This document shows positions 35,338 to 57,993 of a stretch of 64,000 bases of DNA, piece after piece. Origin of the DNA: Kiritimatiellales bacterium. Its GTDB lineage: Bacteria > Verrucomicrobiota > Kiritimatiellia > Kiritimatiellales > Pontiellaceae. The stretch covers positions 1 through 64,000 of the forward strand of contig QKAU01000007.1 in the NCBI GenBank assembly GCA_003246265.1, written 5' to 3'. Position numbers and translations under genes: made by a program. The notes beneath the pieces are model-generated. The model was not told the DNA's origin, ran no database searches, and saw only the letters and a list, made by a program, of their open reading frames with translations. How positions within the stretch are numbered: the stretch's first letter is position 1; each line of letters begins with the position of its first letter.

Positions 35338-36279
35338 ATGAACACGATCCAACAGATAGAAAAGACCGCCGCGGCGCTGCTGCCGCTCTACGCGCAGGAG
35401 GAGGCCGACCTGCCGAACCGCCCGCTCTGGTCGCACCCCGAGCTCGACCAGGTCGTCGAGGCGCTACGCATCCTCTCCGACGTCCTCTTTCCCGGGAAGC
35501 ACATCCCCGAACCGGCGGATTTCCGCGGCTTCTTCATCAAGCAGCTCAAGAACGCGACCGAAATCCTCCTGCCGGAAATCGAGAAGGCGCTCCCCTTCCG
35601 CTGGATGGGCGCGGCCGACCTGCACGAAAAGCGGCCGCCGATCGACAACCTGTTCCTCGCCGCCACGGAGATCATCAACCGCTTCCTAGGCACGATCCCG
35701 CAGATGCGCACCATGCTCGTCGAGGATGTGAAGGCGGCCTACAACGGCGATCCCGCCGCCCTGAGTTATGCCGAAGTGAAGCTGGCCTATCCCGGTCTGG
35801 TGGCGATCACCTCGCACCGCATCGCGCACGAGCTCTATCGCCTCGACGTACCGCTCATCCCCCGCATCATGAGCGAATACACCCACTCGCTAACCGGCAT
35901 CGACATCCATCCCGGGGCAACCATCGGCCGAGGCTTCTTCATCGACCATGGCACCGGCGTGGTGATTGGCGAAACCAGCCACATCGGCGACCACGTCAAG
36001 CTCTACCAGGGCGTGACGCTCGGCGCGAAAAGCTTCCCTCTCGACGAACATGGCCGGCCGATCAAGCATATCCAGCGCCACCCGACCGTCGAGGATGGCG
36101 TGATCGTCTACGCCAACAGCACGATCCTGGGCGGCGACACGGTGATCGGAAAGGGATCGGTGGTGGCGGGCAACGTCTTCCTGATGCAGAGCGTCCCGCC
36201 AGGCAGTTTCGTCTCGCGCGCCGAAGGCGGCGTGGTCATCCGCACCCGCGAGGTGCACGGCCACGGGCTCGGCATCTAA
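35338..36279 (+). CDS. Serine O-acetyltransferase (EpsC/CysE-type)
   Basis: IHPGATIGRGFFIDHGTGVVIGETSHIGDHVKLYQGVTLGAKSF hexapeptide repeats with N-terminal helical domain. Confidence 0.9.
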   Translation: MNTIQQIEKTAAALLPLYAQEEADLPNRPLWSHPELDQVVEALRILSDVLFPGKHIPEPADFRGFFIKQLKNATEILLPEIEKALPFRWMGAADLHEKRPPIDNLFLAATEIINRFLGTIPQMRTMLVEDVKAAYNGDPAALSYAEVKLAYPGLVAITSHRIAHELYRLDVPLIPRIMSEYTHSLTGIDIHPGATIGRGFFIDHGTGVVIGETSHIGDHVKLYQGVTLGAKSFPLDEHGRPIKHIQRHPTVEDGVIVYANSTILGGDTVIGKGSVVAGNVFLMQSVPPGSFVSRAEGGVVIRTREVHGHGLGI

Positions 36280-37331
36280 TCCTCCCCGCTGCGCGGCAGC
36301 TCGATCCAGAAACAGCCTCCGCCCGAGGGCGGCGCGTCGACGCCGAACCGGCCTCCATGCGCCCGGCAGATGTCGGCCACGATCGCCAGACCGAGCCCCA
36401 CGCTCTCCTTCCCCGGCGACCCGGCACGCGCATAGGGCCGGAATACCGCCGCCCGGCGATCGGGTGGAAGTCCCGGTCCCTGGTCGGACACCGACAGCCT
36501 TGCCAGACCCTCTTCCTCTTGCAATAGCGCCACGTCGATTCGCCCTCCGTCGGGAGAGACCTTGAGGGCGTTGTCCAGCAGGTTGGCCAGCGCCTCGCGC
36601 AGCAGTTCGGGTACCCCCACGGCCAGACAGGGCTCCTCCGGAACATCCAGCCGGACTTCAAGCCCGCGCGTCTCCCCGATCGCCCTCCCCTCCCTGGCCA
36701 CCTCGCGGGCAAGCTGAGCAAGATCGACCGTCCGACGCCCCTCTTCGAGCGACCCTCCGGCCGCGCGGGCGAGCAGCAGCAACTGGTTGACGGTCCGGCC
36801 CAACCGCTCCACATCCTCCAGGATGGCCCCCAGCACGGCGCGGTACTCCTCCGGCGACCGGACCTGCTTCAGGCAGACCTCGCCGCGCGTCCGGATGGCG
36901 GCAAGGGGATTGCGCAACTGGTGGGAGGCGTCGTAGTTGAAACGCTGCAACCGGTCGAGAAGCAGCTGGTAGCGGTCGAACGCCTGGTTGAGGGTGGTGG
37001 CCAGCCGCCCGATCTCGTCCCTCGGGTTCTGTACCTCGATCCGCCCCTCCAGGCCGCCGCCACCAATCCGTTCCGCCTGCGCGACCAGCACCTTCCACGG
37101 ACGCAGCAGTCGGCGGGAAACCAGCCAAGCCCCCACCAGGCTCAGGGGGAAGAGCGCCAGCATGGCGGTCGCCACCACCGCGACCTCCTCGAGCTCCGCA
37201 TTCGCCTGCTGGGGGTTCCGGAGCGATTCGACGACATCGAACGAAACCAGCGCCAGGCCGATCGCGACAAAGACGATGGCCGTATGGGCGGCCAGCCAGA
37301 GGAAGAAGCGGGTGCGGATGGATCGGTTCAT
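36276..37331 (-). CDS. Sensor histidine kinase
   Basis: Two TM, HAMP-like region, FNYDASHQLRNPLAAIRT H-box, LLDNALKVSP, DQGPGLP, GLGLAIV. Confidence 0.92.
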   Translation of the reverse strand: MNRSIRTRFFLWLAAHTAIVFVAIGLALVSFDVVESLRNPQQANAELEEVAVVATAMLALFPLSLVGAWLVSRRLLRPWKVLVAQAERIGGGGLEGRIEVQNPRDEIGRLATTLNQAFDRYQLLLDRLQRFNYDASHQLRNPLAAIRTRGEVCLKQVRSPEEYRAVLGAILEDVERLGRTVNQLLLLARAAGGSLEEGRRTVDLAQLAREVAREGRAIGETRGLEVRLDVPEEPCLAVGVPELLREALANLLDNALKVSPDGGRIDVALLQEEEGLARLSVSDQGPGLPPDRRAAVFRPYARAGSPGKESVGLGLAIVADICRAHGGRFGVDAPPSGGGCFWIELPRSGED

Positions 37332-38026
37332 GGCCGTTGCTCCTTCAGGACCAGCCCCACGCCGCGCACCGTGTGCAGGAGCGGCACGAGGCCGGGCAGG
37401 TCCAGCTTTTGCCGCAGGCGCGAGACATGCACATCCAATACATTGTCCATCGACGCCATCGACGAACGCACGTTCCACACCTCGTGCTGGATCATCTGGC
37501 GCGAGGCCACCTCGCCGCGCAGCGAAGCCAGATAGGCCAGGAGATCGAATTCGCGCGGCGTCAGGTCGACCACCTCTCCGCCCCGCGATGCGGTGCGCGT
37601 GGGCAGATCGATCTTCAGGTCGCCGACCTTCCATTGCAGGGCGCCCCGCTCGGAGTGGCGCAATTGGATGCGGATGCGGGCCAGCAGTTCCTCGAACGCA
37701 AAGGGTTTCACCAGGTAGTCGTCCGCCCCGCCCTCCAGCCCGCCCACGCGGTCGGCCAGGCCGGAGCGGGCGGTCGTGATGATCACCGGCAGCCCGGCAT
37801 CGCGCAGGCGAATACGCTTGAGCAGGTCCGCGCCGTCGCCGTCGGGCAGCCCGAGATCGAGCAGGACCAGGGATGGAGGCGAATTCTCCAGGACGTCGGC
37901 AGCCTCCCGAAAGGTCGCCGCGTGGCGGCTGCGGTAACCGGCCTCCTCCAGGCCGAGGACGAGGCTCTCCGACAGCTTGGCGTCGTCCTCGACCACCAGG
38001 ATCAGCGGGCCTGTATCGTTCACCAT
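37328..38026 (-). CDS. OmpR-family response regulator
   Basis: ILVVEDDAKL, LVLLDLGLPDGDG, KPFAFEELLAR, winged helix LTPREFDLLAYL...TVRGVGLVL; 4-nt overlap with kinase. Confidence 0.93.
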   Translation of the reverse strand: MVNDTGPLILVVEDDAKLSESLVLGLEEAGYRSRHAATFREAADVLENSPPSLVLLDLGLPDGDGADLLKRIRLRDAGLPVIITTARSGLADRVGGLEGGADDYLVKPFAFEELLARIRIQLRHSERGALQWKVGDLKIDLPTRTASRGGEVVDLTPREFDLLAYLASLRGEVASRQMIQHEVWNVRSSMASMDNVLDVHVSRLRQKLDLPGLVPLLHTVRGVGLVLKEQRP

Positions 38027-38176
38027 GGGAAACACTCCGGATCGATTGCGGCAAACTACCATCCAACTCGCGGCCGGGGCAATCCCTGAAACCCTACCTT
38101 ACGGGAACTTCAGGTTGAAATTCTTGAACGCCCGCGAGGTTGCCGCCATCTTTCACGCATAACGAAAGGAGCCGAC

Positions 38177-38740
38177 ATGTCCGCAACCAACCTGCGTTCC
38201 ACCCTTCTGGCGGCCACTACCATCCTGGCCCTGGTCCCCCTCCACCTCCAGGCCGAGGAGGCCACGGCCGCCGTGGTCTTCAAGGGAACCTCCACCCTGC
38301 ACGGCTTCGAAGGCACCGTCGCATCCCAACCCTTCGAGATTGAACTCCACGAGGACCCCGCCACCGGACTGATGCACGTTTCGGCCGCCGCCACCGTCAA
38401 CGTCGACGAAATGACGACCGACAACCGAAAGCGCGACAGCAACATGTTCAAGATGCTCGATGCCGCGACCTTTGCCCGGATCGAAGGACGGCTGGTGGAT
38501 GCCGTGCTTCCGGCGGAAGGAACCGCGGAAGCCACGCTCCTGCTCACCATCCGCGGGGTGGCGCAGCCGGTGGCGGCCACCCTTTCGGATTGGCACCACG
38601 AAGAGGGGCAGGTTTCGTGCCGCATGACCTTCCCCGTATCGCTCAAGGCGTTCGGGCTCAAGGCCCCGTCCGTCATCGGCCTCATCCGCGTGGGCGACAC
38701 GGTCGACGTCGAATGCACCATCAGGACCATCCGCCAATGA
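38177..38740 (+). CDS. YceI-family periplasmic lipid-binding-like protein
   Basis: Signal peptide; STLHGFEGTVASQPFEIEL, MTTDNRKRDSNMFKMLDAATFARIEGRL, GLIRVGDTVDVECTI. Confidence 0.82.
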   Translation: MSATNLRSTLLAATTILALVPLHLQAEEATAAVVFKGTSTLHGFEGTVASQPFEIELHEDPATGLMHVSAAATVNVDEMTTDNRKRDSNMFKMLDAATFARIEGRLVDAVLPAEGTAEATLLLTIRGVAQPVAATLSDWHHEEGQVSCRMTFPVSLKAFGLKAPSVIGLIRVGDTVDVECTIRTIRQ

Positions 38741-39891
38741 AAACCTTCATCCACCACATCGAGACCGCGCTTCCGCCCTATGCCTACCGCCAGGACTATG
38801 CCCGCGACCGCATGGTCGACTGGCTTCCCGGCAGGCGGAACCGCCGGCTGATCCACGGGATCTACGACCACTCCGGCATCGAGACCCGCTACAGCGTGCT
38901 CCCCGACTTCGCCCCCGGGGCCGAATCCGTGCTCTTCAAGGAAGACGTCAACGGCCGGATCGTCGAGCCTTCGACACAGGCCCGCAACCGCTACTTCCGC
39001 GAGCGCTCGCGCGAGCTGCTGCTCCAGGCCGGACGGCAGGCGCTGGAGCGGGCGACCGGTTTCGGCGCGGAAGACATCACCCATGTCGTTACGGTCTCCT
39101 GCACCGGCTTCTACAATCCCGGTCCCGACCTCGATCTGGTCCAGGGGCTCGGACTCGCCCCCTCGACGGAACGCTACAACATCGGATTCATGGGGTGCTA
39201 CGCCGCCTTTCCCGCCCTGCGCATGGCCGACCAGTTCTGCCAGGCCCGCCCCGACGCCGCCGTGCTGGTGGTCTGCCTCGAGCTCTGCTCGCTGCACCTG
39301 CAGCTCAGCGAGGAACCCGACAGCCTGCTGGCCAACGCCCTCTTTGCCGACGGGGCGGCCGCCGCCATCGTCAGCGCCCGCCCCCTGCACCCCGGCAAGG
39401 CCGGTTTATCGATCGAATCCTTCGTTTCGGCGCTCGCCCCCGAAGGCAAGGGCGACATGGCGTGGGAGATCGGCGACCGCGGATTCGAAATCCGCCTTTC
39501 CACCTATGTCCCGAACATCATCGCCAGCAGCATCGCCCGGATCGTCGACGATATGCTGGCCGGAACGCCGTGGCACCGCCGGGATATCCACCGATGGGCC
39601 GTACATCCCGGCGGGCGGGCCATCCTCGACCGCATCGAAGGCGAACTCTCCCTGGAACCGGCGCAGATCGAAGATTCGCGCGCAGTCCTGCGCCAGTACG
39701 GCAACATGAGCAGCACCACCGTACTCTTCGTGCTCCGCCGCATGCTGGAGCACCCGGCGGAAGACGGGCCGTTCCCGGTCTGTGCCATGGCTTTCGGTCC
39801 CGGACTGACCATCGAAACCGCCCTGCTCGAATGCGTGCCGGCCCGCATGGAACAACCCAGGAGGACAACCTGTGCAGCGTCCTTGGCCTAG
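38737..39891 (+). CDS. Type III polyketide synthase (chalcone/stilbene synthase family)
   Basis: Catalytic Cys in NIGFMGCYAAFPALRMA, His in WAVHPGGRAILD, Asn in YGNMSSTTVLFVL. Confidence 0.92.
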   Translation: MKTFIHHIETALPPYAYRQDYARDRMVDWLPGRRNRRLIHGIYDHSGIETRYSVLPDFAPGAESVLFKEDVNGRIVEPSTQARNRYFRERSRELLLQAGRQALERATGFGAEDITHVVTVSCTGFYNPGPDLDLVQGLGLAPSTERYNIGFMGCYAAFPALRMADQFCQARPDAAVLVVCLELCSLHLQLSEEPDSLLANALFADGAAAAIVSARPLHPGKAGLSIESFVSALAPEGKGDMAWEIGDRGFEIRLSTYVPNIIASSIARIVDDMLAGTPWHRRDIHRWAVHPGGRAILDRIEGELSLEPAQIEDSRAVLRQYGNMSSTTVLFVLRRMLEHPAEDGPFPVCAMAFGPGLTIETALLECVPARMEQPRRTTCAASLA

Positions 39892-40390
39892 CCTGTTGCT
39901 GGCGGCGTTCCTTGCCGCCCCTTCGCTTCTGGCGGAGACGGTCCTGATGAAGGCCAAGGTCCCCAACGCCGCCATCCCCCAGGGCGAGGTTCGGCTCGTG
40001 CGGCGCGGAGGGGAAGCCGTTGTGCAAACCTGCCTGCAAACGCGTTTCCCGGGGCGGGTGTTCGCCAAGATCTCCGGTAGCGAACGGGAAAACTGGCCCG
40101 GCAGCGCGGAGATGGAAACCTATGTTGGAACCTTGGCCGAGGCCCTCGACCACTACCGGCAGCTGCCGGCCGGATCGATGCTGCTGATCGATTTCGTCGC
40201 CGGCCCGGAGGGGAATCGCGTCGACTTCCTCTTCCCGCCCGCCCCCGTCTGGCGGAGCCTTCCACTCTCGGCGGACTATGTCCGGAAGAACCAGGAGCAT
40301 ATCCTGGCCGATTCGTTCGGCAAGCAAGCCAACGAGGCCATCGCCGCCCTGCGAACCCTCCACGCGAACGGGGAAAGCCATGGAGAATAA
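39872..40390 (+). CDS. Exported hypothetical protein, GTG start
   Basis: AGGAGG RBS; MQRPWPSLLLAAFLAAPSLLAETV signal peptide; overlaps both neighbours. Confidence 0.75.
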   Translation: MQRPWPSLLLAAFLAAPSLLAETVLMKAKVPNAAIPQGEVRLVRRGGEAVVQTCLQTRFPGRVFAKISGSERENWPGSAEMETYVGTLAEALDHYRQLPAGSMLLIDFVAGPEGNRVDFLFPPAPVWRSLPLSADYVRKNQEHILADSFGKQANEAIAALRTLHANGESHGE

Positions 40391-42356
40391 TGTCGCGCGC
40401 CATACCCTCGCCCAGCGCGCCGTGGCGCTGGCCTACGGGCTGGCCTGCCATGCCGCCTTCCTGATGGCCGTTGCGGCCATGGCCGTCTCGCTCTTCACCG
40501 GCCTGCGCTTCGGCCGCGGCCCGTTCCATGGCTGGAGCTCCGCGCTGGCCAACGGGCTGCTGCTGGCCACCTTCCCGCTCTCGCACTCCGGGTTGCTTTC
40601 CCCCGCGGGCCGACGCTTCATGGCCCGGCTGGTTCCGCTCGGTATCGGCAGCAAGATTTCGACGACGGTGTTCGTGGCGCTCTCCTCGCTCCATCTGCTG
40701 GCGGTGTTCGCCTGCTGGTCGCCGTCCGGCGTCGTCTGGTGGCAGGCGGACCCGGCTGCCACGGTGCTCCTCGCGGTTTTGGCCGGGGCTGGATGGCTGC
40801 TGCTGGGCAAGTCGATGGCCGACGCCCAGCTCGACTTCCAGCTTGGGCTGGTAGGCTGGTGGGCCGTGGTCCGCAACCGCAAGGCGGTCTACAGGCCCTT
40901 CTCCACGCGGGGGCTCTACCGCCATGTCAGGCAGCCCATCTACATCTCCTTCGCGCTGCTGCTCTGGCTCACTTCCGCATGGACCCCCGACCAGCTGGTG
41001 CTGGCCCTGGGGTGGACCGCCTACTGCGTGGCGGGCGCCGCGCTCAAGGAGCGGCGCTTCCTGCGCTATTTCGGCGATGGATTCCGAAGCTACCAGCGCG
41101 AGGTCCCCTTCTGGATCCCCCGCCTGCGGCGAAAGGTCGCCGGGACACAAACCCCGGTACACGACACCGACACCATCATCGTGGGCGGAGGCCCGGTGGG
41201 GCTGCTGCTTGCCAGCCTGCTGGGCCGGCGGGGTCTGCGCGTCCTGGTGGTCGAGCGGCGCACCAGGCCGGTTGCCGGCTCCATGGCCATCGGCATTACC
41301 CCCCCTTCGCTCAACATCCTGAAGACGATCGGTCTCGACGGCGCATTCTCGGCGCAGGGCGTACCGATCACCACCGCCAGGGTGTTCGAATACGGGCGGG
41401 TCCTCGGCGACGTGGATTTTTCGAGGTTGCCCGTGGAGCACCGCTACATCCTTTCGCTGCCGCAGTCCGAGACCATCGCCATCCTGCGCGAAAACCTGAA
41501 GACCTACCCCTCCGTCCATCTCATCGAAGGGATGGAGTTCCTCGATTGCCGGGAGGAGGCCGGCTGCGTCCTCGTCCGCCTGCAGGACAAGGAGAGTTCG
41601 GCCTTCAGCGAATTCCGCGCCCCTTATCTTGTCGGTTGCGACGGCCACCGCAGCCGTGTGCGGGCATCGGCCGGCATCCATTTTCGCGGCCGCCACTACG
41701 CGCCGCGCTTCCTGATGGCCGACTTCGAGGACCATACCGCGTTCGGCGCGGAGGCCCGGCTCTACTTCGGCCCCGGCGGTTCGGTGGAATCGTTCCCGCT
41801 CTCGAACGGGCGGCGGCGCTGGATCATCCAGAACCTCGACCCCGCAGGGGCGGAGCCTGCCGAAATCGGCAAGTCCGTGGCCCGGGAGGTGGGGAGGAGG
41901 ACCGGCTTCGACCTATCGACCTCCCGCGTTTCCTTCGAAAGCGCCTTCCATCCCCAGCGGCGCATGGCCGCCACCTACGCCAAGGGACGCATCCTGCTCT
42001 GCGGCGACGCCGCGCATGTCATGAGCCCCATCGGCGGGCAAGGAATGAATACCGGCTTTGCCGATGCCGCCTGCTTGGCCGGGGCGATCGCCGGCGCCAT
42101 GGCCGCACCGCGCGAGGCCCGCGCCCTGTTTTCCGCCTACACCTGCGACCGCCAGCGGGCCTTCCGCGTGGCGGCCACGCGCGCGGCGTGCGGCATGTGG
42201 CTGGGCACGCGGACCGGGACTGTCCTCTCCGGACTGCGCCGACTGTTCATCCGCAAGATTCTCCTCCAGTCCCCCGCCCGCGAGCGGCTGGCCCCCTACT
42301 TCGCCATGCTCACCATTCCCGGCAACCGGCAGCCGGCCGGAGTCGCCACCCCATGA
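40380..42356 (+). CDS. Fusion: N-terminal isoprenylcysteine-methyltransferase-like membrane domain + C-terminal FAD-dependent aromatic monooxygenase
   Basis: N-part TM segments with GLYRHVRQPIYISFAL...KERRFLRYFGDGFRSYQREVPFWIPRL; C-part IIVGGGPVGLLLASLLGRRGLRVLVVER, GCDGHRSRVR, LCGDAAHVMSPIGGQGMNTGFADA. Confidence 0.88.
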   Translation: MENNVARHTLAQRAVALAYGLACHAAFLMAVAAMAVSLFTGLRFGRGPFHGWSSALANGLLLATFPLSHSGLLSPAGRRFMARLVPLGIGSKISTTVFVALSSLHLLAVFACWSPSGVVWWQADPAATVLLAVLAGAGWLLLGKSMADAQLDFQLGLVGWWAVVRNRKAVYRPFSTRGLYRHVRQPIYISFALLLWLTSAWTPDQLVLALGWTAYCVAGAALKERRFLRYFGDGFRSYQREVPFWIPRLRRKVAGTQTPVHDTDTIIVGGGPVGLLLASLLGRRGLRVLVVERRTRPVAGSMAIGITPPSLNILKTIGLDGAFSAQGVPITTARVFEYGRVLGDVDFSRLPVEHRYILSLPQSETIAILRENLKTYPSVHLIEGMEFLDCREEAGCVLVRLQDKESSAFSEFRAPYLVGCDGHRSRVRASAGIHFRGRHYAPRFLMADFEDHTAFGAEARLYFGPGGSVESFPLSNGRRRWIIQNLDPAGAEPAEIGKSVAREVGRRTGFDLSTSRVSFESAFHPQRRMAATYAKGRILLCGDAAHVMSPIGGQGMNTGFADAACLAGAIAGAMAAPREARALFSAYTCDRQRAFRVAATRAACGMWLGTRTGTVLSGLRRLFIRKILLQSPARERLAPYFAMLTIPGNRQPAGVATP

Positions 42357-43141
42357 ACGCATCCGCCCTGCCCCTTGTCGACACCCGACCCTGCCCCTGG
42401 AAGACGGAGCCCATCGATTTTTCGAGGCGAGCCGCCATGCCGGAACTCATGGATATTCCCGGGTGCGACGAAGCCTTCCTGCTGCGGACGGTCGACCAGT
42501 TCGCCTCGATCAACCGGCTCGTCGCCCGCTACCGCACCATCCTCTCCCGGCTCGTGCTCGACGACATGGCCCGGGCGCCCGACCGCCCCTACCACCTCGT
42601 CGACATGGGGGCCGGGGGATGCGACATCGACGCATGGCTCCTGCGGGCCGCCCGGCGTCGCGGCCTCGACCTTCGGATCACCGCCTGCGACATCGATCCG
42701 CGCATCATCCGGCACGCCCGCGCCCGCTTCGGCGACGTTCCCGGGCTCGACATCCGCGAGCAGGATCTCCTCGGGGAACCGCCCGGCGAGGACGTCGACT
42801 ATGTCTTCGCCAACCATTTCCTGCACCATCTCGAAGAGGAGCAGATCCTGCGTCTCGTCCGCCTGTGGCAACCGAGCGTCCGGCGGCGCCTCGTTTTCAG
42901 CGACCTGCTCCGCAGCCGCTGGGCTTACCTGGGCTTTGCCCTCCTTTCGCTGGCCTACCGGCGCAGCTTCGCCCGGACCGACGGGCTCATCTCCATCCGC
43001 AAGGGATTCCTGCCCGGGGAACTGGCCCGATTGGCCGAAAAAACGGCGGGTTCCGGCTCCTTTTCCGTCGGGAAGCGGCTCCCCGGCCGGACGGTGCTTT
43101 GCATCGATGGCGGGGCCTCCGATTTGGCAAAAAAACACTAG
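42353..43141 (+). CDS. Class I SAM-dependent methyltransferase
   Basis: LVDMGAGGCDIDAWLL, ITACDIDPRIIRHARARF, FANHFLHHL. Confidence 0.87.
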   Translation: MNASALPLVDTRPCPWKTEPIDFSRRAAMPELMDIPGCDEAFLLRTVDQFASINRLVARYRTILSRLVLDDMARAPDRPYHLVDMGAGGCDIDAWLLRAARRRGLDLRITACDIDPRIIRHARARFGDVPGLDIREQDLLGEPPGEDVDYVFANHFLHHLEEEQILRLVRLWQPSVRRRLVFSDLLRSRWAYLGFALLSLAYRRSFARTDGLISIRKGFLPGELARLAEKTAGSGSFSVGKRLPGRTVLCIDGGASDLAKKH

Positions 43142-43233: not shown

Positions 43234-43422
43234 ATGCCTAAGACAAAGACCAAGAAATGCGCGGCCAAACGGTTCCGGGTAACCGGCACCGGCAAGCTGA
43301 AACGCAACCACATGGGCGGCAGCCATATCCTGTCGAACAAGAACCGCAAGCGCAAGCGCACCCTCCGCGGTTCCGAGATCGTCGAACATGCGGACATGAA
43401 GCGCATCACCCCTTTCATCTAG
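43234..43422 (+). CDS. rpmI: 50S ribosomal protein L35
   Basis: MPKTKTKKCAAKRFRVTGTGKLKRNHMGGSHILSNKNRKRKRTLRG. Confidence 0.96.
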   Translation: MPKTKTKKCAAKRFRVTGTGKLKRNHMGGSHILSNKNRKRKRTLRGSEIVEHADMKRITPFI

Positions 43423-43439
43423 TTCCCGGAGATTGAACC

Positions 43440-43796
43440 ATGCCAAGAGCAACCAACGCACCGGCTTCGCGCCGGAGAAGAAAGAACCGCCTGAAGCTGG
43501 CCAAGGGCTTCCGCGGATCCCGCAGCAAACTTTTCCGCATGGCGACCGAGTCGGTCGACCGTGCACAGGCGATGGCCTATGTGCACCGCAAGCACAAGAA
43601 GCGCAACTTCCGCAACCTGTGGATCGTGCGCATCAACGCCGCCTGCCGCATGAACGGCATCAGCTACAGCCGATTCATCGAAGGTTGCGCCAAGGCCGGC
43701 ATCGCCCTCAACCGCAAGGTGCTGTCCGAGATCGCCATCCACGATCCGGCCGGGTTCACCAAGGTAGTGGAAACCGCGAAGGCCAAGCTCGCCTAG
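43440..43796 (+). CDS. rplT: 50S ribosomal protein L20
   Basis: MPRATNAPASRRRRKNRLKLAKGFRGSRSKLFRMATESVDRA..., LWIVRINAACRMNGISYSRFI. Confidence 0.97.
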   Translation: MPRATNAPASRRRRKNRLKLAKGFRGSRSKLFRMATESVDRAQAMAYVHRKHKKRNFRNLWIVRINAACRMNGISYSRFIEGCAKAGIALNRKVLSEIAIHDPAGFTKVVETAKAKLA

Positions 43797-48816: not shown

Positions 48817-50027
48817 AACCGAACAAGCCCAGAATCGCCTTCATCCACCGCTACGGACTGGAAGGATGGATATGCTGCGGCGGACACGCCGTTCCCGCCA
48901 TCGTCGACCGGCTCTCCGATACCGCGGAGATCCATTTCTACGGCCCGAAAACCACCGAAGCCGCGGACCCCGGCCTGCGCGCCAGGCTCCACATGCACGA
49001 ACTGCCCTACACGTGGAACCGCGCCAACCCGAGGGACAAGATCACCAAGACCCTCCCTTGGTACCTCTTCCTGCCACTCGTCGGCCTCCGTTGCCGTCTG
49101 GATGGGACCGCCCTGGTCTGGAACGATGAAACCGTCCCCTTCACCGCACCGATCCTGCGTCTCTTTTTCGGCCCCAACGTCGCCATTACGGTCATGGACT
49201 TTTTCGCCCGCATATACACCGAGAAGCATCCCCGGCTCCATTGGCTCCGCGATCTTGTCGAGCGCATCGACTTCGCCGCGTGGCGCAAATTGCCCCTGAT
49301 CTTCACCAAGGTGCTCTACACCCAGGAATTCCTCGCCGAACGCGGAATCCCCAAAGAAGTCATGCACCTCTACCGCAACCCCGTAGACCACGCCAAATTC
49401 CATCCGGTCGACGACGCCACGCGCAGGGCGACCCGTACCCGCTTTGGATTCACCGAAGACGACATCGTCCTCACCCACCACGGCATCCTGCACCCCAACA
49501 AGGGCAACGACTGGTTGCTTCGTCGCGTCGCCGAACTCAGGGACACGGCACCCCGTCTCAGATTCCTTCTCATCGGCAACGGGCCGGAGATGGCGAACCT
49601 CCAAACGCTCGCCCGCGGACTCGGCATCGCCGACCGGGTCGTCTTCGCCGGCTGGCTCCCATCCGAAGAGGCATTGAACAACGCCCTCGCCTCCGCCGAT
49701 ATCGGCCTCGTCATGCGGATCGGACAGGAGACCGACCACTTCCATATGACCGACACCCTCGCCCACGAAATGGCCTGCGGCAAGCCGATCCTCGCTGTCA
49801 ACCTCCGTGGCATCGCCGAAGTCATCCGCGACGGCGAAAACGGCTACCTCTTCTCCCACGAATACCCAGAGGATTTCACCGATCGCATTAAGCACCTGAT
49901 AGAGCATTCATCAGAATGCAGGAACCTAGCCATCGCCGCCCATTGGGTTAGTAGTACGGAAAACAATTTCGAAAACATAGCCGAGATAGCGGCAGATCGT
50001 TTAGGGAACCTTATTAAATCTCCATGA
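48813..50027 (+). CDS. Glycosyltransferase family 4
   Basis: HHGILHPNKGNDWLLRRVAEL, FLLIGNGPEMANLQTLA, DTLAHEMACGKPILAVNLRGIAEVIRDGENGYLF. Confidence 0.87.
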   Translation: MKPNKPRIAFIHRYGLEGWICCGGHAVPAIVDRLSDTAEIHFYGPKTTEAADPGLRARLHMHELPYTWNRANPRDKITKTLPWYLFLPLVGLRCRLDGTALVWNDETVPFTAPILRLFFGPNVAITVMDFFARIYTEKHPRLHWLRDLVERIDFAAWRKLPLIFTKVLYTQEFLAERGIPKEVMHLYRNPVDHAKFHPVDDATRRATRTRFGFTEDDIVLTHHGILHPNKGNDWLLRRVAELRDTAPRLRFLLIGNGPEMANLQTLARGLGIADRVVFAGWLPSEEALNNALASADIGLVMRIGQETDHFHMTDTLAHEMACGKPILAVNLRGIAEVIRDGENGYLFSHEYPEDFTDRIKHLIEHSSECRNLAIAAHWVSSTENNFENIAEIAADRLGNLIKSP

Positions 50028-51193
50028 ACTATCTGGATAAATACAAGGTTGGTTCCATGCTTTTCCGAACCCTATCGGAAGGCAGGATGAGACTCAAGGC
50101 ACTGGGCAATGCATTCCTGTTCGATCATGCCCCGCCGGATTTCGTTATCGAAATCAGCCAATATGTGAGTCAACACCGCAATGCGCTTTTATTTACCACC
50201 TTGTCGGGAACTTTTGATCTCAAGGTGCCTGATTCACCCATTATCCCAGAATCAGCCCGGGGCGTGCTTGCCAAGGATGAGCACATCACCTTCCCACAGA
50301 CGTTTGTCGCCAGCATTCCCAATGCCCGAGTCCTAGGCGATGGTACAGTGATCGTTGGTGACAACGCCATTCTATCCAATACGACCACGGATTTCCACCG
50401 GAAGATGGAGCACCACCACTTGCTCTATAGCCTCAAGCTCCCAAAACCGGAAGCATACAACGGCCGGTTAGCCGTGATCGCTTCACCCGGAAGCGACAAC
50501 TATTTCCATTGGACGTTGGACTCCATTCCGCGCTTCCACCTCCTTGAACACTTCAGCAACCATATCGATGGCTATTATGTGAACACGCGGCACTCTTTCC
50601 AACGCGAATGGCTAGAGTGGATTGGAATCCCGCGAAATCGCATTATTCCCGCGTCAGAAAACCGTCACATTATCGCATCGGAACTTATTGTTCCTTCGTT
50701 CGCAGGCCTACCCGGCCTACCTACCGCGCAAGGGATTGATTTTATCAGATCGTTCATGCCTCCTGCTGCCCCCAGCGAAGGACGGCGCATATATGTCTCT
50801 CGAGCAGACGCCCGCCGGCGACGCATCGTAAACGAAGAGCAGATTCTTCCACTGCTTAGAGCGCATCGCTTCGAGGTTGTTAAACCCGGGACCATGACCG
50901 TATGCGAACAAATGAGGGTGTTTGCCGACGCAACAGCTGTCATATCCCCCCACGGTGCGGAACTCACCAACCTGGTCTACTGCCGACCGGGCACAGGTGT
51001 TCTTGAAATCCTATCACCCTATTACCTCAATCCATGCTTCAGGTTGCTTTCGGGCATGACCGGACTGCGACACACGGCCCTGGTTGGCGATGGAGGGGCG
51101 AGCGTTTTGAAGCGTCAACTGGACGCACATCACGTATGGTCAAATATTAAGGTTGATCTCCCGAAGCTGGAGCACGCACTATCGTTGATGTAG
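50024..51193 (+). CDS. GT61-family capsular polysaccharide glycosyltransferase
   Basis: NYFHWTLDSIPRFHLL, RRIYVSRADARRRRIVNEEQILPLL, AVISPHGAELTNLVYCRPGTGVLEI. Confidence 0.87.
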   Translation: MNYLDKYKVGSMLFRTLSEGRMRLKALGNAFLFDHAPPDFVIEISQYVSQHRNALLFTTLSGTFDLKVPDSPIIPESARGVLAKDEHITFPQTFVASIPNARVLGDGTVIVGDNAILSNTTTDFHRKMEHHHLLYSLKLPKPEAYNGRLAVIASPGSDNYFHWTLDSIPRFHLLEHFSNHIDGYYVNTRHSFQREWLEWIGIPRNRIIPASENRHIIASELIVPSFAGLPGLPTAQGIDFIRSFMPPAAPSEGRRIYVSRADARRRRIVNEEQILPLLRAHRFEVVKPGTMTVCEQMRVFADATAVISPHGAELTNLVYCRPGTGVLEILSPYYLNPCFRLLSGMTGLRHTALVGDGGASVLKRQLDAHHVWSNIKVDLPKLEHALSLM

Positions 51194-51211
51194 TCGGTGG
51201 CGGTGAAAAAC

Positions 51212-52357
51212 ATGGATGAAAAATTCAACATTGCAATTGTCGGAGGATCTCTTTCAACCCGCGGCGGAGGAGCTCCGCGCTCCATGGCGCAACAAGCTGC
51301 CATCCTGGACAAGAGCGGACATCATGTTGAACTGTTTGTCGGTTTCAGCCGGAAATACCCCCTTACAAACAATCAGTTCGGATGCGCTGATTGCACTATT
51401 CATGCGTCTCAACTTTGGGGGCCGAGTGTACTCGGCTTTTTCCCCAGATCCCTACTTGCCCTTTGGAAGAAAGCAAGGGACTTCGACTTTATCCACCTGA
51501 ACGGAGCATGGAACCTGACTACAGCCATCGCCTCGAGAATTGCTCGAAGAAGGGGCGTCCCCTATATCATTACGATGCGCGGCCATTTTGGCGCGTACCA
51601 TTTCCGGCGCCTGCCGATGCTAAAAAAGATTATGTTCAGCCTGATTGAGATACCCAACATCAGACATGCGTTCGCAATGCACGCTACCGCGCGCTGGGAA
51701 GTTGAAACATCGAGCACAGTTTTGCGGCATAGTCGCAACACTGTGATCATTCCAAACCCCGTGGACCTTGCCGATTTCAGGCAGCCGCCTACACGGCACG
51801 ATGCTAGGCAACTTCTTGGCTTGCAGGACTCCGACTTCCACATTGTGCATCTCGGACGGCTGGCTAAACAAAAAAACATTCCCTTTCTGATACGGGCATT
51901 TGCCCAGGCCAAGCTCGGCAAAAAGGCCTATCTCACGTTGATCGGCCCGCCCGAAGCCCGCCTGAAGAAAACACTGTTCCGCATGGCGACTCAACTAGAT
52001 GTGCAAGATCAAATCCGCTTCATCGATTTCGTATCGGGCACGGAGCGCTGCAAATGGCTTGCCGCAGCAGATCTTTTTGCACTGCCCTCGTTCGATGAAA
52101 ATTTTTGCATCGTGGCTGTGGAAAGCGTCGCCAGTGGCACCCACTGCCTCCTGTCGCCACACGTTGGCGCGGCAGAATTTCTTCCCCAAGACATGCTCAC
52201 AGTATGTGAACTCGACCTTGGAAAATGGGTTCATGCATTGCATGAGTTGGCGGCTTCACGGAAACTGCAACGAATTCCGCAACCGGGTACATTTACTCAA
52301 TTTTCAACCGGCTCGGTGTTGCAAGCTTGGCAACAGCTGTATCGTTCTGACAGGTAA
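51212..52357 (+). CDS. Glycosyltransferase family 4 (ORF could open at GTG 51197)
   Basis: IVGGSLSTRGGGAPRSMAQQAAIL, HLGRLAKQKNIPFLIRAFA, LFALPSFDENFCIVAVESVASGTHCLLS. Confidence 0.88.
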   Translation: MDEKFNIAIVGGSLSTRGGGAPRSMAQQAAILDKSGHHVELFVGFSRKYPLTNNQFGCADCTIHASQLWGPSVLGFFPRSLLALWKKARDFDFIHLNGAWNLTTAIASRIARRRGVPYIITMRGHFGAYHFRRLPMLKKIMFSLIEIPNIRHAFAMHATARWEVETSSTVLRHSRNTVIIPNPVDLADFRQPPTRHDARQLLGLQDSDFHIVHLGRLAKQKNIPFLIRAFAQAKLGKKAYLTLIGPPEARLKKTLFRMATQLDVQDQIRFIDFVSGTERCKWLAAADLFALPSFDENFCIVAVESVASGTHCLLSPHVGAAEFLPQDMLTVCELDLGKWVHALHELAASRKLQRIPQPGTFTQFSTGSVLQAWQQLYRSDR

Positions 52358-52365
52358 AGTAGCTT

Positions 52366-53214
52366 ATGAGCATCCATATGCCAGATATGAAAACGGTCCA
52401 GAACGAATACGACGCTTTCTTGTCGAAAGCTGTCGAGCTGGATTCACCATATGGATCCAACACCATCGCAACCTATCTTAAGGCTTACAGGGAACGGATA
52501 TGCTCCCAAATCATGGTCCAGCTTGCTGTCGTATGCAAAGCCAGAACCCCAGCCAAACGCATGTTGTCGCTAGGCGGGTGGCCTGGCGTGGCGCCGATCA
52601 TGCTCAACCGGCTAACAGGTATAGAATCGACTTTGGTTGACCATCCGGCCCTATTGACAGGAGTCATGGGCCAGTTTTATTCGGCGCATGGAATCAAAGC
52701 CGTTGAATGCAACTTTTCTGACATTGCCGTAGAGCCACTCCCCCTTTCGGGGGGGTACCAACTGATCGAATGCTGTCAATGCATTGAGCATTGGAATTTC
52801 AGCCCCATCCCCATGTTTAAACAGATCTTCTCCCAGCTTTTGTCAACCAACGGGGTTTTCTTCATTACGGTACCCAACGCGGTCAGCTTGTACCGGAGAG
52901 CGTCCATCGTTGTCGGGCGAACGCCATACCCTGCAATGCAGTCCTTCATCGAAGTGGACGAAAACAAACCTGGCGCCGAAATCTCCCCCCATTGGAGGGA
53001 ATATACGCGCAAGGACATGGAACAACTCATCCTATATTGCGGCGGTCGGAGCATGGACATCCGTACGAAAACGTACTCGATTAACGCAATGAAAAACTGG
53101 CAGCACAGAATTTATTCCCTGTTCAGCAACTTGCACCCCTCACTACGCGAGAATATCGAAGCAGTCTGCTCAACTGAGGCTCGGATATCATTTGATCGCC
53201 TCGATATAGATTGA
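52366..53214 (+). CDS. SAM-dependent methyltransferase-like protein
   Basis: MLSLGGWPGVAPIML, LIECCQCIEHWNFSPIPMFKQIFSQLLSTNGVFFITVPN. Confidence 0.68.
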   Translation: MSIHMPDMKTVQNEYDAFLSKAVELDSPYGSNTIATYLKAYRERICSQIMVQLAVVCKARTPAKRMLSLGGWPGVAPIMLNRLTGIESTLVDHPALLTGVMGQFYSAHGIKAVECNFSDIAVEPLPLSGGYQLIECCQCIEHWNFSPIPMFKQIFSQLLSTNGVFFITVPNAVSLYRRASIVVGRTPYPAMQSFIEVDENKPGAEISPHWREYTRKDMEQLILYCGGRSMDIRTKTYSINAMKNWQHRIYSLFSNLHPSLRENIEAVCSTEARISFDRLDID

Positions 53215-53916
53215 TTGCGGCTTGTAAGCTCCCCCATCTTCGCCAAGGTCGAGCCCTAAAGCACTCCAGCCAACAATATGGCTATGCCGATAATCCATGC
53301 TTTCCACCTTCCTGAAACCCGACTTCAGAAGGATCTCCGCCAGATTGATCTCATCGTACATCCACTGGTGCGTCTCGCCCCTATGACGCGCATCACCGAA
53401 AATTTTGTTTTCCAACCATCGACGCAATGGCTTTTGGCGGCTGGTGCCATAAGATTCCTTTCTGACGCATTGCTCAATTATCCTTCCTATGTATTGGTCA
53501 TGAGTCGCACACAAGGAAGTATCAACCAAGCAAAGAGAGCAATGTTCGACATATTGCATAACCAACGCATGGAAGTCAGGCACGACAATACGATGCACCC
53601 CTCCAGCCTTTAGAACGCGCCGGACATCAGCCATGAAAGGCGCCACATGCTCCCTGTCCAGATGCTCAAGCAAATGGCAGTGATATACTGCATCCACCGA
53701 CCCGTCGGGAAAGGGAATTCCCTTGGATAGATCATGGACAAGAATATTTTCGCCCAACGAAGCGAACTCCCGCAAGCGTTCGCCAGACAGAAAGAGTGGC
53801 GCTATCCCGCTTCCAAAAAATGATCGTCTTAACCGCAAGGCAACTGACCAATCAATGTTGATAACAGCAGGATCGGGAGAAGATTTGCCTCCGCACCCCA
53901 AATTCAATATGCTCAT
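53188..53916 (-). CDS. SAM-dependent methyltransferase
   Basis: LNLGCGGKSSPDPAVINIDW, VDAVYHCHLLEHLDREHVAPFMADVRRVLKAGGVHRIVVPD. Confidence 0.85.
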   Translation of the reverse strand: MSILNLGCGGKSSPDPAVINIDWSVALRLRRSFFGSGIAPLFLSGERLREFASLGENILVHDLSKGIPFPDGSVDAVYHCHLLEHLDREHVAPFMADVRRVLKAGGVHRIVVPDFHALVMQYVEHCSLCLVDTSLCATHDQYIGRIIEQCVRKESYGTSRQKPLRRWLENKIFGDARHRGETHQWMYDEINLAEILLKSGFRKVESMDYRHSHIVGWSALGLDLGEDGGAYKPQSIYIEAIK

Positions 53917-53941
53917 TTGGTCTCCTCCATACACATTCGTT

Positions 53942-54913
53942 TCAATGAAGTGTCCTCGAAAGCACAACCTTGGCTGCCAGAACGAGCTTGGGTATCGCAC
54001 CCCAACCCCAACGATTGAACATCAGGCCCACGGTTCGCAAATAGCTCCTAGGCATAATGTACCTTCGCATGAACGCTTCGAATGCGGCATTTTCCTCGAT
54101 TTCCGTCTCTTGATCAAATGAAGCAGGCCCAACGTCAACAGGTAGATTCAGAAATGGGTCATAGACCTGCGTATTATATCCACCATGGTCACCTATATTT
54201 GAGATCATGTTGCCAGAAGGATAGAGTACCAGGTATTTTTTCTGGAACATGCAGTATGCCCACTGGGCATCCCAACGAAGCAGAGAAAGTTTCCGCATTC
54301 TTCTATACAACTGCTCAAAACGCCGCGCATAGCGCCGAGCAAACAACTCCCCAAGACAACCGGAAGCGATAAAGGATTCCAACTGGTCCATTTTGTGATC
54401 CGCCTGCAACCAGACTCTTCGCCATGTTGCAAGCCCCCATATCTGAGGATAACGGGAAACAATGCAACGGCTGCCAAGTCCCACCCTCCCCTTACTAAAA
54501 AAGGGGACCACGTTGGCTCCTGAAATCATGCCTATTCGCGGATCATCCGAGTATTTGTCCAACAAGCAACGGCAAAGCTCGAAATATCGTGGGCTAGGCA
54601 AACAATCCTCTTCAAGTATTAGCCCCTTGTCTTCATGCATGAAGAACCAGTCCAGGGCTTCCTTTATGAACCGATTAGGCCCCAAGTTTGCTTTCTTGAA
54701 AAGGGTTTCCACGCTGCATGGCCAATCGATGGAATCGCCAAGGTAGCAACGTATTTGCGCATTGGCTTCTTCTTCCTCACGATGTCCTGTTCGGGCGCCA
54801 TCGATGGCCAAGTACAGTCGGGCGGGCTGTTGCTCGCGAATTCGCTCAAAAACCCGCTTCGCGACAGCGAGGCGACTAAATGGGATGAATAGTATCGGTA
54901 AATCTCGGCACAT
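53942..54913 (-). CDS. GT-A glycosyltransferase-like (HlpA-like) protein
   Basis: LPILFIPFSRLAVAKRVFERIREQQPARLYLAIDGAR, NLGPNRFIKEALDWFFMHEDKGLILEEDCLPSPRYF. Confidence 0.75.
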   Translation of the reverse strand: MCRDLPILFIPFSRLAVAKRVFERIREQQPARLYLAIDGARTGHREEEEANAQIRCYLGDSIDWPCSVETLFKKANLGPNRFIKEALDWFFMHEDKGLILEEDCLPSPRYFELCRCLLDKYSDDPRIGMISGANVVPFFSKGRVGLGSRCIVSRYPQIWGLATWRRVWLQADHKMDQLESFIASGCLGELFARRYARRFEQLYRRMRKLSLLRWDAQWAYCMFQKKYLVLYPSGNMISNIGDHGGYNTQVYDPFLNLPVDVGPASFDQETEIEENAAFEAFMRRYIMPRSYLRTVGLMFNRWGWGAIPKLVLAAKVVLSRTLH

Positions 54914-54915
54914 AA

Positions 54916-55920
54916 TCAGTATGCAATTAAAACCAGATCCGCCAATGGCGTCGCCATTTCCGATCGCCGGATGGCAAACCGATAGCCCAAGTCCAACTTC
55001 TCCAGGTATGGCTTTACGTCGAAAAAATCCCGAGCTCTATGGTATATGCATATGCACAAAATTGGTTTCTGCTCCTTGATGGTCGCCATTGCCCCCTCAA
55101 TGGCTTGTGTTTCAAATCCTTCTATATCCATTTTTATCAGCCCTACATCGAGCCGATGCACGCGTACTTCATCGTCAATGGTGCCAATACTCACGGTTCC
55201 GCTACTGGCCTGCGCGGTATCCTTCAATTCCATTCCACTTGAAAAGGCTTGCTTCTCGCAATCGCCCATGCCTTTCCTTACCGGAATTATTTTTCCCTCC
55301 AACCTATTTGAACTGACGAATCGGCAGAGTTGATCATAAGCCTCGCGATTAGGTTCATAGGAAAGTATTTGCTGCGGCCCGAATACTTCCCAGAACATGC
55401 ATGCCGTATCCCCATTGAAGGCTCCCACATCCATAATGACTTTTTTCGACAGGTCGCATCTCATCGCATCCAACAGATCACGCATGCCATATCTGCTAAA
55501 AAACAGGTATGGATCAAAAAAAGCTGAGTTTTTGTAGCTATGGATACTCTTGCGCACGTGCGCTTTGTTCTCCATATACATTGCTTGCTCGGCAAGATCA
55601 TTATGGCACCACGCTTCGTTCAAGGGCAGGAAATACGGGCATTTCCCCCCGATGAGATAGCGTTTATACAGAGCAATGGTTCTGTCTACATAGGAGCACG
55701 AAATCTGGTCGAGCCCGCTTCTTAGGGCGGCGGTTTTTTGCTCTACGGAAAAGAATTTGAAATAATCCTCCCAAAAATCTATCCAAATACTTTTAACCAA
55801 TTCGCGATCCCATATTTTACGATTCCATTCCCTGCGGACAGATGCCCTGGCTTCCAGCAGGAAACGACGGGCCTCCCATGGAAGCAAGGATCGCATCATG
55901 TCTGTTGCCGAATTCATCAT
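54916..55920 (-). CDS. FkbM-family methyltransferase
   Basis: VIMDVGAFNGDTACMFWEVFGPQQILSYEPNREAYDQLCRFV, VGLIKMDIEGFETQAIEGAMATI. Confidence 0.88.
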   Translation of the reverse strand: MMNSATDMMRSLLPWEARRFLLEARASVRREWNRKIWDRELVKSIWIDFWEDYFKFFSVEQKTAALRSGLDQISCSYVDRTIALYKRYLIGGKCPYFLPLNEAWCHNDLAEQAMYMENKAHVRKSIHSYKNSAFFDPYLFFSRYGMRDLLDAMRCDLSKKVIMDVGAFNGDTACMFWEVFGPQQILSYEPNREAYDQLCRFVSSNRLEGKIIPVRKGMGDCEKQAFSSGMELKDTAQASSGTVSIGTIDDEVRVHRLDVGLIKMDIEGFETQAIEGAMATIKEQKPILCICIYHRARDFFDVKPYLEKLDLGYRFAIRRSEMATPLADLVLIAY

Positions 55921-55953
55921 AGATGCCGTGCCTTAAACTACAAACCGGGTCGA

Positions 55954-57993
55954 TTACCAGTGCTTCCTAGGGGGGCTATGCCCATTGCCCCATGGATGCC
56001 GCCTCACTCCCGCAACAATCACTGCCGTCGTGGCGAGCAGGGCCGCCACGTTGGTGGCGAGGGAGAAGCCGATCACGTGGTAGACCGATGCATGGAACCA
56101 GTGGACGCCGGCAAGGTAGGCCAGGCCGCAGGCCACGACAACGGCGAGCTGCTTGAAGCATCGCTGCGCGAGCAGCAGGAAGACATTGATATTGAGTAGC
56201 GTCGCGGCGGCCATGGCCACCGCCATCCAGCGGGTCCAGGAGAGGATTTCCGGACCGGTGCCGGCCTTGGGGAAGAGGATGTGGAGCATGGGGCCGGGCA
56301 CGAGGATGCACAGGAACAGGGAGGCGCCCACCAGGCCTGCCGTGTACAGCTGCGAGCGCAGGTAGATCCGCCGGTGCTCGGCGGTGAACGATTGGGCCGA
56401 CGATACCTTGGGGAACATCGCCATGGCGACGGACGCCGCCATGAAGGCCACCATGCGGCCCAGCGTCGCCGCATAGGCAAAGTCGGTGTTCTCCGGCAGA
56501 TAGTGCTTCACCAGCACCACATCGCCCGTCATGAGGATGGCGGCGCTGACCTGGATGAGGAAGCATTGCGCCAGATAGAGCCGCAGGCTGGGCACGGATC
56601 CTTGCCCGGCATCCTTGTTCCGAAGCATGGACCGCAATGGGATCAACCCGACGAGCAGCGCCAGATACAATCCGCCGACATGACCCAACAGCGCCCAGCC
56701 GCAGGCCGGGACCATCACCGCCACCAGCAGGGCTCCAAGCGCTACCCGGGAAACCGAGTTTCCGATGCTCGCAATCGAAGTCCAATCGAACCGTTGCAGC
56801 CCCAGCAGCACCCCGCCCACGACCGGCGCCACGAAGATGGCGGGAAGCGCCGCCGCGGACACCACCACCGGGGCGATGCGTTCCAGGTGGAAGAATGCGG
56901 CAATCGGCCGGGCAAGCAGGGCGCAGGCCGCGGCGGACACGAAGGATACGCCGCCCGTGATCAGCAGCCATTTCAACAGCAACCGCCCCACCACCCCCAG
57001 GCGCCCTTCCTGCACGAGCAGGGCGACATAGTGGTTCAGCGCCGTGGAGAGCGTACCCAACGGCCGGGCCACGATGGCGAAAAGCGCCAGGAAGGTCGCC
57101 AGCAGAGCGTATTCCGCGCCGGGCAGAGAACGGCCGACCACCATCTGGTAGCCGATATTCGCGAACGAGGTGATGATCGAGGCGCTGAAGAGCAGCGCGG
57201 CATGGCGGAAGAGCTGGTCGCGCAACAGGAATTCCACGGGCTTTGCGAGGAAGCGGTCGTACCAGCCCACAACGAAGCTGAGGGGAGAATAAAGCAACCG
57301 CATGCGCACGACCGCGCAGAACATTTCGAAAGACGTGTTCATGATCCGCACTTTCGAGCCGGCCACATCGTTCCAAACCGTCGGTTCCTCCTGGATGCGA
57401 TAGCCATGCCGCTTCAACTGGTAGAGGAGGTCGACATCGAATGCAAAGCGCGTGATGCCGATCCGGGGCAGGATGGCCTTCCACGCGTCGGCCCTGAAAA
57501 TCTTGGCGCCGCACTGGGTGTCGACATACCGCAGACCCAGCACGACGCGAATCAGCAGATTGAAGAGGCGCGACGAGAGCAGCCGCAGCCCCTTCTGCTG
57601 CACGCTGACCTGCGCGCCCCGCTTCCATCGCGAGGCAACGACCCCGTCGCTGGAGGCAGCCACACGATAGAGTCGCTCGAACTCCTCCGGCGCGGTGGCC
57701 CCGTCGGCATCGACAAAGCCGACCCACTCCCCGCTAGCCGCCTTCGCACCAAGAATGATTGCCCCGCCCTTCCCTATTCGGCCCGCCTCCTCGATCACCC
57801 GGATCTGGGGGAAGTCGCCGGCGATCTCCCGCGCAACAGCGGCCGTGCGGTCCGTTGATCCGTTGACGACGACAAGCAGTTCGAATCTGTCGCCAAGGGC
57901 TCGGGAAAAATGGGTTGCGTAGTGCGTCAGGACCGGCGGCAGCCGCGCCTCCTCGTTGTAGGCGGGAATGATGATGGACAGGAACCTAGTCAT
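55954..57993 (-). CDS. Fusion: N-terminal GT2 (polyprenyl/dolichyl-phosphate glucosyltransferase-like) + C-terminal MOP/Wzx-type flippase domain
   Basis: FLSIIIPAYNEEARLPPVL, VVNGSTDRT, WVGFVDADGATAPEEF, DTQCGAKIFRADAW; then about 430 aa of TM helices with MOP-like layout in one uninterrupted frame. Confidence 0.85.
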   Translation of the reverse strand: MTRFLSIIIPAYNEEARLPPVLTHYATHFSRALGDRFELLVVVNGSTDRTAAVAREIAGDFPQIRVIEEAGRIGKGGAIILGAKAASGEWVGFVDADGATAPEEFERLYRVAASSDGVVASRWKRGAQVSVQQKGLRLLSSRLFNLLIRVVLGLRYVDTQCGAKIFRADAWKAILPRIGITRFAFDVDLLYQLKRHGYRIQEEPTVWNDVAGSKVRIMNTSFEMFCAVVRMRLLYSPLSFVVGWYDRFLAKPVEFLLRDQLFRHAALLFSASIITSFANIGYQMVVGRSLPGAEYALLATFLALFAIVARPLGTLSTALNHYVALLVQEGRLGVVGRLLLKWLLITGGVSFVSAAACALLARPIAAFFHLERIAPVVVSAAALPAIFVAPVVGGVLLGLQRFDWTSIASIGNSVSRVALGALLVAVMVPACGWALLGHVGGLYLALLVGLIPLRSMLRNKDAGQGSVPSLRLYLAQCFLIQVSAAILMTGDVVLVKHYLPENTDFAYAATLGRMVAFMAASVAMAMFPKVSSAQSFTAEHRRIYLRSQLYTAGLVGASLFLCILVPGPMLHILFPKAGTGPEILSWTRWMAVAMAAATLLNINVFLLLAQRCFKQLAVVVACGLAYLAGVHWFHASVYHVIGFSLATNVAALLATTAVIVAGVRRHPWGNGHSPPRKHW

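Follow-up and report, generated by a model that had tools for sequence, protein, structure and literature searches.

Organization of the locus

Inspection of ORFs and sequence revealed five overlapping genes joined by four overlapping junctions at positions 38177-43141 of the window (the 64-kb stretch of DNA analysed here), bearing out the five ORFs and four junctions of a first-pass annotation at the same coordinates (Table 1). The yceI gene overlaps the ATG of the type III polyketide synthase (PKS) gene (38737) by the tetranucleotide ATGA, and the PKS gene overlaps the gene for an exported protein (EXP) by 20 nt at a GTG start (39872) preceded by a strong AGGAGG. The EXP gene overlaps the ATG of a fusion gene (40380) by 11 nt, and the fusion gene in turn shares an ATGA with the gene for a SAM-dependent methyltransferase (SAM-MT), whose ATG is at 42353. 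The rpmI-rplT pair (43234-43796) lies directly downstream, and operon-bearing members of the genus share this flank wherever the contig extends far enough to show it. As the same gene set and adjacency are found again in dozens of other genomes, the operon is more than a chance arrangement.

The host is a marine member of the Kiritimatiellales with a 3.0 Mb draft genome, and its closest named operon-bearing relatives are SZUA-494 and the Pontiellaceae isolates B1224 and B12219. Elsewhere in the window, positions 50000-56000 have a GC content of 0.49-0.53 (versus ~0.65), encode glycosyltransferases and methyltransferases and are probably an acquired surface-polysaccharide island; the contig start (1-2000) has a GC content of 0.41 and small ORFs.

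Table 1. Features of the window locus and of related loci
Feature	Coordinates	Strand	Basis or remark
Sensor histidine kinase (HAMP-HisKA-HATPase), regulator partner	36276..37331	-	Pfam HATPase_c, HisKA, HAMP
OmpR/PhoB-type response regulator, divergent from yceI	37328..38062	-	Pfam Response_reg, Trans_reg_C
Direct-repeat box CTTAC-N5-CTTCA, putative response-regulator site	38098..38112	+	Pattern match, conserved position
YceI-family exported lipid-binding protein, putative periplasmic carrier	38177..38740	+	PF04264, signal peptide
Type III polyketide synthase	38737..39891	+	PF00195, PF02797
EXP, exported protein of unnamed family	39872..40390	+	Signal sequence; without Pfam/NCBIfam match
ICMT/MddA-like membrane methyltransferase fused to FAD-dependent aromatic monooxygenase	40380..42356	+	NF045656, PF01494
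SAM-dependent methyltransferase, PRK06202-like	42353..43141	+	Methyltransf_12, NF004851
U32-family proteins inside type III PKS operons	L054:12507-13754; L070:7333-8613; L075:13122-14402; L043:4693-5934		Replace flavin monooxygenase
Balneolia ORF of ~1285 aa	L089:2090-5944; L098:2894-6754; L117:2816-6673		

Encoded enzymes and exported proteins

The PKS carries both the N-terminal (PF00195, 89.6 bits, e-value = 2.6e-25) and the C-terminal (PF02797, 97.8 bits, e-value = 7.9e-28) chalcone/stilbene synthase domains, each well above the cut-off of 27. Its Cys-His-Asn triad is intact (C154, H290 and N323, aligned to PKS18 and 4b0n) and invariant in alignment A1. The best PDB matches include resorcinol-type as well as pyrone-type enzymes, PKS18 among them, so that a pyrone product is conceivable. 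At the three positions that we take to be tunnel residues of PKS18 (T144, C205 and A148), the alignment places T123 and C184, which are kept, and N127, which replaces A148. In the genus member SZUA-127 the PKS is fused to the monooxygenase in one 779-aa ORF (L038:1684-4023). The product of the window PKS is likely of the alkylresorcinol type.

The fusion protein consists of a membrane methyltransferase of the ICMT/NnrU kind (residues ~1-255) and an FAD monooxygenase (residues ~260-600), and the two halves are encoded by separate genes in one sister operon (L064). Residues 12-247 match the MddA model NF045656 (e-value = 6.3e-30) at 104 bits, below the equivalog cut-off of 270, and we therefore regard this half as a homologous membrane methyltransferase and not as the MddA methanethiol methyltransferase. 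The monooxygenase half is UbiH-type (FAD_binding_3, PF01494, e-value = 6.3e-58). The SAM-MT matches Methyltransf_12 (e-value = 3.9e-9) and, below its cut-off, the PRK06202 model NF004851 (e-value = 1e-49); its position next to the type III PKS is conserved in Actinobacteria and Balneolia also. Type III PKS, methyltransferase and FAD monooxygenase are thus present in one operon by domain match, which agrees with the srsABC-type enzyme set originally proposed for the locus.

A search within 7 kb at the 35 homologous loci that carry YceI (see below) found an FAD monooxygenase at 25, a U32-family protein at 8 and both at none (Fisher p = 1.9e-6, kinship ignored). The two loci with neither (L034, L057) are cut by contig ends, and at L067 the monooxygenase match lies ~3.4 kb upstream of YceI and may fall outside the operon. 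The U32 domain (PF01136) scored above cut-off in five sister-operon proteins, and an alignment of the sister-operon U32 proteins contains ten invariant cysteines. UbiU and UbiV are U32 Fe-S proteins required for O2-independent ring hydroxylation in ubiquinone synthesis, where they alternate with O2-dependent flavin enzymes of the UbiH type in the same way (PMC6747719); unlike UbiU/UbiV, the type III PKS operons encode a single U32 protein, whose cysteine spacing was not matched to either the UbiU or the UbiV motif. Of the indirect arguments for hydroxylation of the PKS-derived ring by the flavin enzyme, this interchange is the strongest. The U32 operons do not mark hosts that lack O2 respiration, as 8 of the 9 U32-bearing genomes have a gene of the heme-copper oxidase family (PF00115).

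The same interchange bears on an alternative in which the PKS products are long-chain alkylpyrones modified by O-methylation alone, as with BpsA/BpsB; the monooxygenase would be peripheral or would act on the alkyl chain, and no quinone would be formed. The match to PKS18, an alkylpyrone synthase, speaks for this reading, as does the ICMT-like domain, which recalls BpsB, an O-methylating enzyme of alkylpyrones. We nevertheless consider it unlikely: the either-or distribution of FAD monooxygenase and U32 fits hydroxylation of an aromatic ring, the UbiE-like methyltransferases of sister operons point to a quinone-like ring, and resorcinols were the products of the PKS from the described operon that comes nearest.

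The YceI protein contains the YceI domain (PF04264, 46.5 bits, e-value = 6.5e-12, cut-off 23.7) behind a Sec signal peptide, MSATNLRSTLLAATTILALVPLHLQA, recognized by inspection; no PDB chain was matched by sequence. Structures of the family commonly hold octaprenyl lipids or ubiquinone-8 (PMC9113575). EXP also starts with an evident Sec signal sequence; the window protein has no match in Pfam or NCBIfam, and its homologs have none in Pfam above cut-off. AlphaFold (AF2) models are confident for the window protein (pLDDT 87) and for a homolog (pLDDT 89). The top four fold matches of the window model are CHIL structures, which are plant chalcone-isomerase-like proteins (probability 0.97-1.00, TM 0.46-0.53, E 0.016-0.03). 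The homolog's model has no convincing fold match and no CHI among the matches listed, and a profile-profile comparison with seven Chalcone_3 proteins was negative, so a chalcone-isomerase-like assignment is tentative. We regard EXP as an unnamed exported family on whose fold the searches disagree.

Distribution and probable regulation of the YceI-linked operons

To place the operon among its relatives, we applied iterated profiles to eighty named loci together with loci from relatives' genomes, with 86 distinct PKS loci among them. YceI lies in the PKS neighbourhood at 35 of these, from Kiritimatiellales, Verrucomicrobia, Desulfuromonadales-type genomes and unclassified bins; within this set it is absent from the PKS loci of Actinobacteria, Balneolia/Bacteroidota and Deinococcota, where the usual layout is PKS, SAM-MT and monooxygenase. 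In 28 of the 35 loci the gap between the end of the YceI domain and the PKS domain downstream is at most ~105 nt, and in four (L055, L066, L071, L108) YceI is found past the PKS, at the opposite end of the operon. The two genes are on the same strand in every case, and since the position of YceI varies, the link survives rearrangement. A synteny check of the pairing, suggested when the locus was first described, thus finds adjacency conserved across three lineages. In three Balneolia loci an ORF of ~1285 aa with similarity to histidine kinases lies a few kb upstream and is perhaps another regulator (Table 1).

Sister operons also carry MMPL/RND transporters and UbiE-like methyltransferases. 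The Pontiellaceae order is YceI, PKS, MMPL, ICMT-monooxygenase, UbiE-like methyltransferase and SAM-MT; SZUA-494 has EXP in the place of MMPL, and in several operons of the Desulfuromonadales type EXP comes after MMPL. With Actinobacteria, Balneolia and Deinococcota left out, a UbiE-like methyltransferase occurs at 31/35 loci with YceI versus 4/18 without, and EXP at 16/35 versus 0/18 (statistics inflated by genome relatedness); an EXP homolog was found at 16 distinct loci in total, all with YceI. The window operon itself has neither the MMPL pump nor the UbiE-like methyltransferase, and relocation of either within the genome is not indicated, as only distant homologs were found (27% and 25-34% identity, respectively). 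On a quick PKS tree, YceI presence requires 12 changes compared with ~27 for shuffled labels, a count to which losses and truncated contigs add.

Two genus members (L038; L039 with L040) keep PKS, monooxygenase and SAM-MT, followed by rpmI-rplT; YceI and the kinase are absent from them genome-wide, and the stretches examined showed no EXP, MMPL or ICMT domain. The partners expected from the original reading of the operon are therefore a partial rule at homologous type III PKS loci, holding for YceI at the 35 loci above and failing for YceI and EXP in Actinobacteria, Balneolia and these two genomes. Homologous loci without YceI and EXP suggest that the handling module is an add-on to the core pathway, outside its chemistry. 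YceI and EXP might also have no functional tie to the PKS and simply be carried along at an insertion point conserved close to rpmI-rplT, a reading to which the recurrent rpmI-rplT flank of the genus lends itself. Against it, the genes overlap in operon-like fashion and the association persists where gene order has changed, in genomes of Verrucomicrobia and of the Desulfuromonadales type; we hold it to be highly improbable.

Operons of Kiritimatiellales and Verrucomicrobia keep the response regulator as a divergent neighbour. Within the genus group, orthologs of the window kinase (57-65% identity) occur only in the five other genomes having YceI, so that the kinase is present in 6 of 28 genomes (G000-G027) and the same six have YceI; the odds of an identical choice of six from 28 are 1 in 376,740, phylogeny ignored. 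Three genomes (G006, G012, G023) keep the PKS without kinase or YceI. Alignment of intergenic regions revealed the CTTAC-N5-CTTCA direct repeat. The corresponding pattern, CTTAMNNNNNYTTMA, has a single match in the window (chance mean 0.15) and lies upstream of yceI, on the yceI strand, in 10 of the 12 loci in which YceI and the regulator occur together, with no match elsewhere within those loci; the pattern was drawn up after most of these sequences, except L064, had been seen. The L064 site is palindromic and is matched on both strands. From this co-occurrence, we assign the divergent response regulator and kinase and the box, all absent from the first-pass annotation, to the predicted system, and the operon is probably regulated by its own two-component system.

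The regulator pair is nearest, below cut-off, to the metal-response CopRS/CzcRS subfamily, which could favour another role for the exported proteins: with the same biosynthesis, YceI and EXP would be envelope-stress or detoxification proteins, BcnA-like scavengers of radicals or antibiotics with the lipid as antioxidant, and not transporters. BcnA is a YceI lipocalin that gives protection from lipid peroxyl radicals, and one of its homologs binds ubiquinone-8 (PMC9113575). The presence of MMPL pumps and EXP at the same loci argues for export or handling, and although the roles are not exclusive, we judge the stress reading quite unlikely.

Predicted pathway and relation to known systems

The best explanation of the whole, which we consider fairly probable from comparative sequence evidence, is that the operon synthesises and handles a phenolic lipid under two-component control. 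The type III PKS would add malonyl-type units to a long acyl-CoA and so form an alkylresorcinol-type core, whose ring the FAD monooxygenase half of the fusion would hydroxylate. The ICMT-like membrane half and the soluble SAM-MT would then methylate the ring, giving a methoxylated alkyl-hydroquinone or quinone. Passage of the lipid across the inner membrane would follow, for which sister operons probably use the MMPL pump; in the periplasm or outer membrane, YceI and the exported EXP would then carry the lipid or hold it in position. Conservation of the CTTAC-N5-CTTCA box suggests that the divergent two-component system acts through it. The core idea, synthesis of a phenolic lipid or quinone that is coupled to dedicated periplasmic handling, is well supported by comparative genomics; the carrier role of YceI and EXP is one that we infer.

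The product is likely an alkylresorcinol or alkylquinone that has been hydroxylated and methylated and is handled in the periplasm; quinone formation is plausible. Of the earlier proposal of phenolic-lipid or quinone synthesis with periplasmic handling, the parts touched by comparative genomics (YceI-PKS adjacency, MMPL/RND transporters, UbiE-like methyltransferases and hydroxylase interchange) have gained support. In a more far-reaching and still doubtful version, the operons of Kiritimatiellales, Verrucomicrobia and Desulfuromonadales-type genomes would specify a two-component-regulated non-isoprenoid lipoquinone, a type III PKS alkylquinone completed by interchangeable ring hydroxylases (flavin, O2-dependent, or U32, O2-independent) and deployed outside the inner membrane by YceI, EXP and MMPL as an envelope electron carrier or antioxidant. 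The window genome has cytochrome bd, COX1-family oxidase and UbiA-family genes, one of the last near a UbiE-like gene on contig C22, so that a separate, ordinary quinone pathway is probably present. These genes disfavour an alkylquinone as the sole respiratory quinone.

By enzyme set, the operon resembles SrsABC of Streptomyces griseus and AgqABCD of Actinoplanes missouriensis, which share a type III PKS, a methyltransferase and a flavoprotein monooxygenase (PMC10896814), a core seen here also in Actinobacteria and Balneolia loci. Beyond these systems, the present operons have YceI, EXP, MMPL, the ICMT-monooxygenase fusion and a dedicated two-component system. As cited in PMC10896814, alkylquinones arise from alkylresorcinols by oxidation in the SrsA and FtpA pathways, and polyketide quinones of mycobacteria are electron carriers. 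Methyltransferase, oxidoreductase and type III PKS likewise yield decorated alkylresorcinols in the cyanobacterial hierridin operon HidABC and in planctomycetal three-gene operons (PMC10896814), for which YceI, EXP, MMPL and a two-component module are not described.

Alkylresorcinol synthesis by planctomycetal type III PKSs has been described (Milke et al. 2024, PMC10896814), including a pentacistronic operon of 'Saltatorellus ferox' Poly30 in which a type III PKS gene stands with genes for a lipid/isoprenoid-binding protein, a putative lipoprotein and two methyltransferases. Pentadecyl- and heptadecylresorcinols (C15/C17), some of them methylated, were obtained with this PKS. Unlike the window operon, it has the PKS last and no reported monooxygenase; the YceI-like gene is mentioned without follow-up, and a regulator or box is not described (PMC10896814). 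The BcnA/YceI lipocalins of Burkholderia are likewise secreted lipid carriers of the YceI fold, linked to cytochrome b561 and not to a type III PKS (PMC9113575). In our literature search no paper found paired type III PKS and YceI by name; judged from titles and abstracts, the papers found that pair type III PKS with MMPL concern mycobacteria, and from titles, pairings with Desulfuromonas looked incidental. As read from the genes, the predicted phenolic-lipid operon with its putative periplasmic handling module is a variant of the SrsABC/HidABC kind, in which the carrier, export and regulation module around known-type enzymes looks largely undescribed.

If this reading is true, the lipid- and quinone-binding YceI family, whose function is largely unresolved, would be tied to one biosynthetic product, which would allow a direct test of YceI cargo. 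The findings also suggest a role for O2-independent U32 hydroxylases in phenolic lipids of polyketide origin, besides their role in ubiquinone. The combination of YceI, type III PKS, EXP/MMPL, UbiE-like methyltransferase and hydroxylase forms a recognisable operon type in several lineages that could guide the search for its product.
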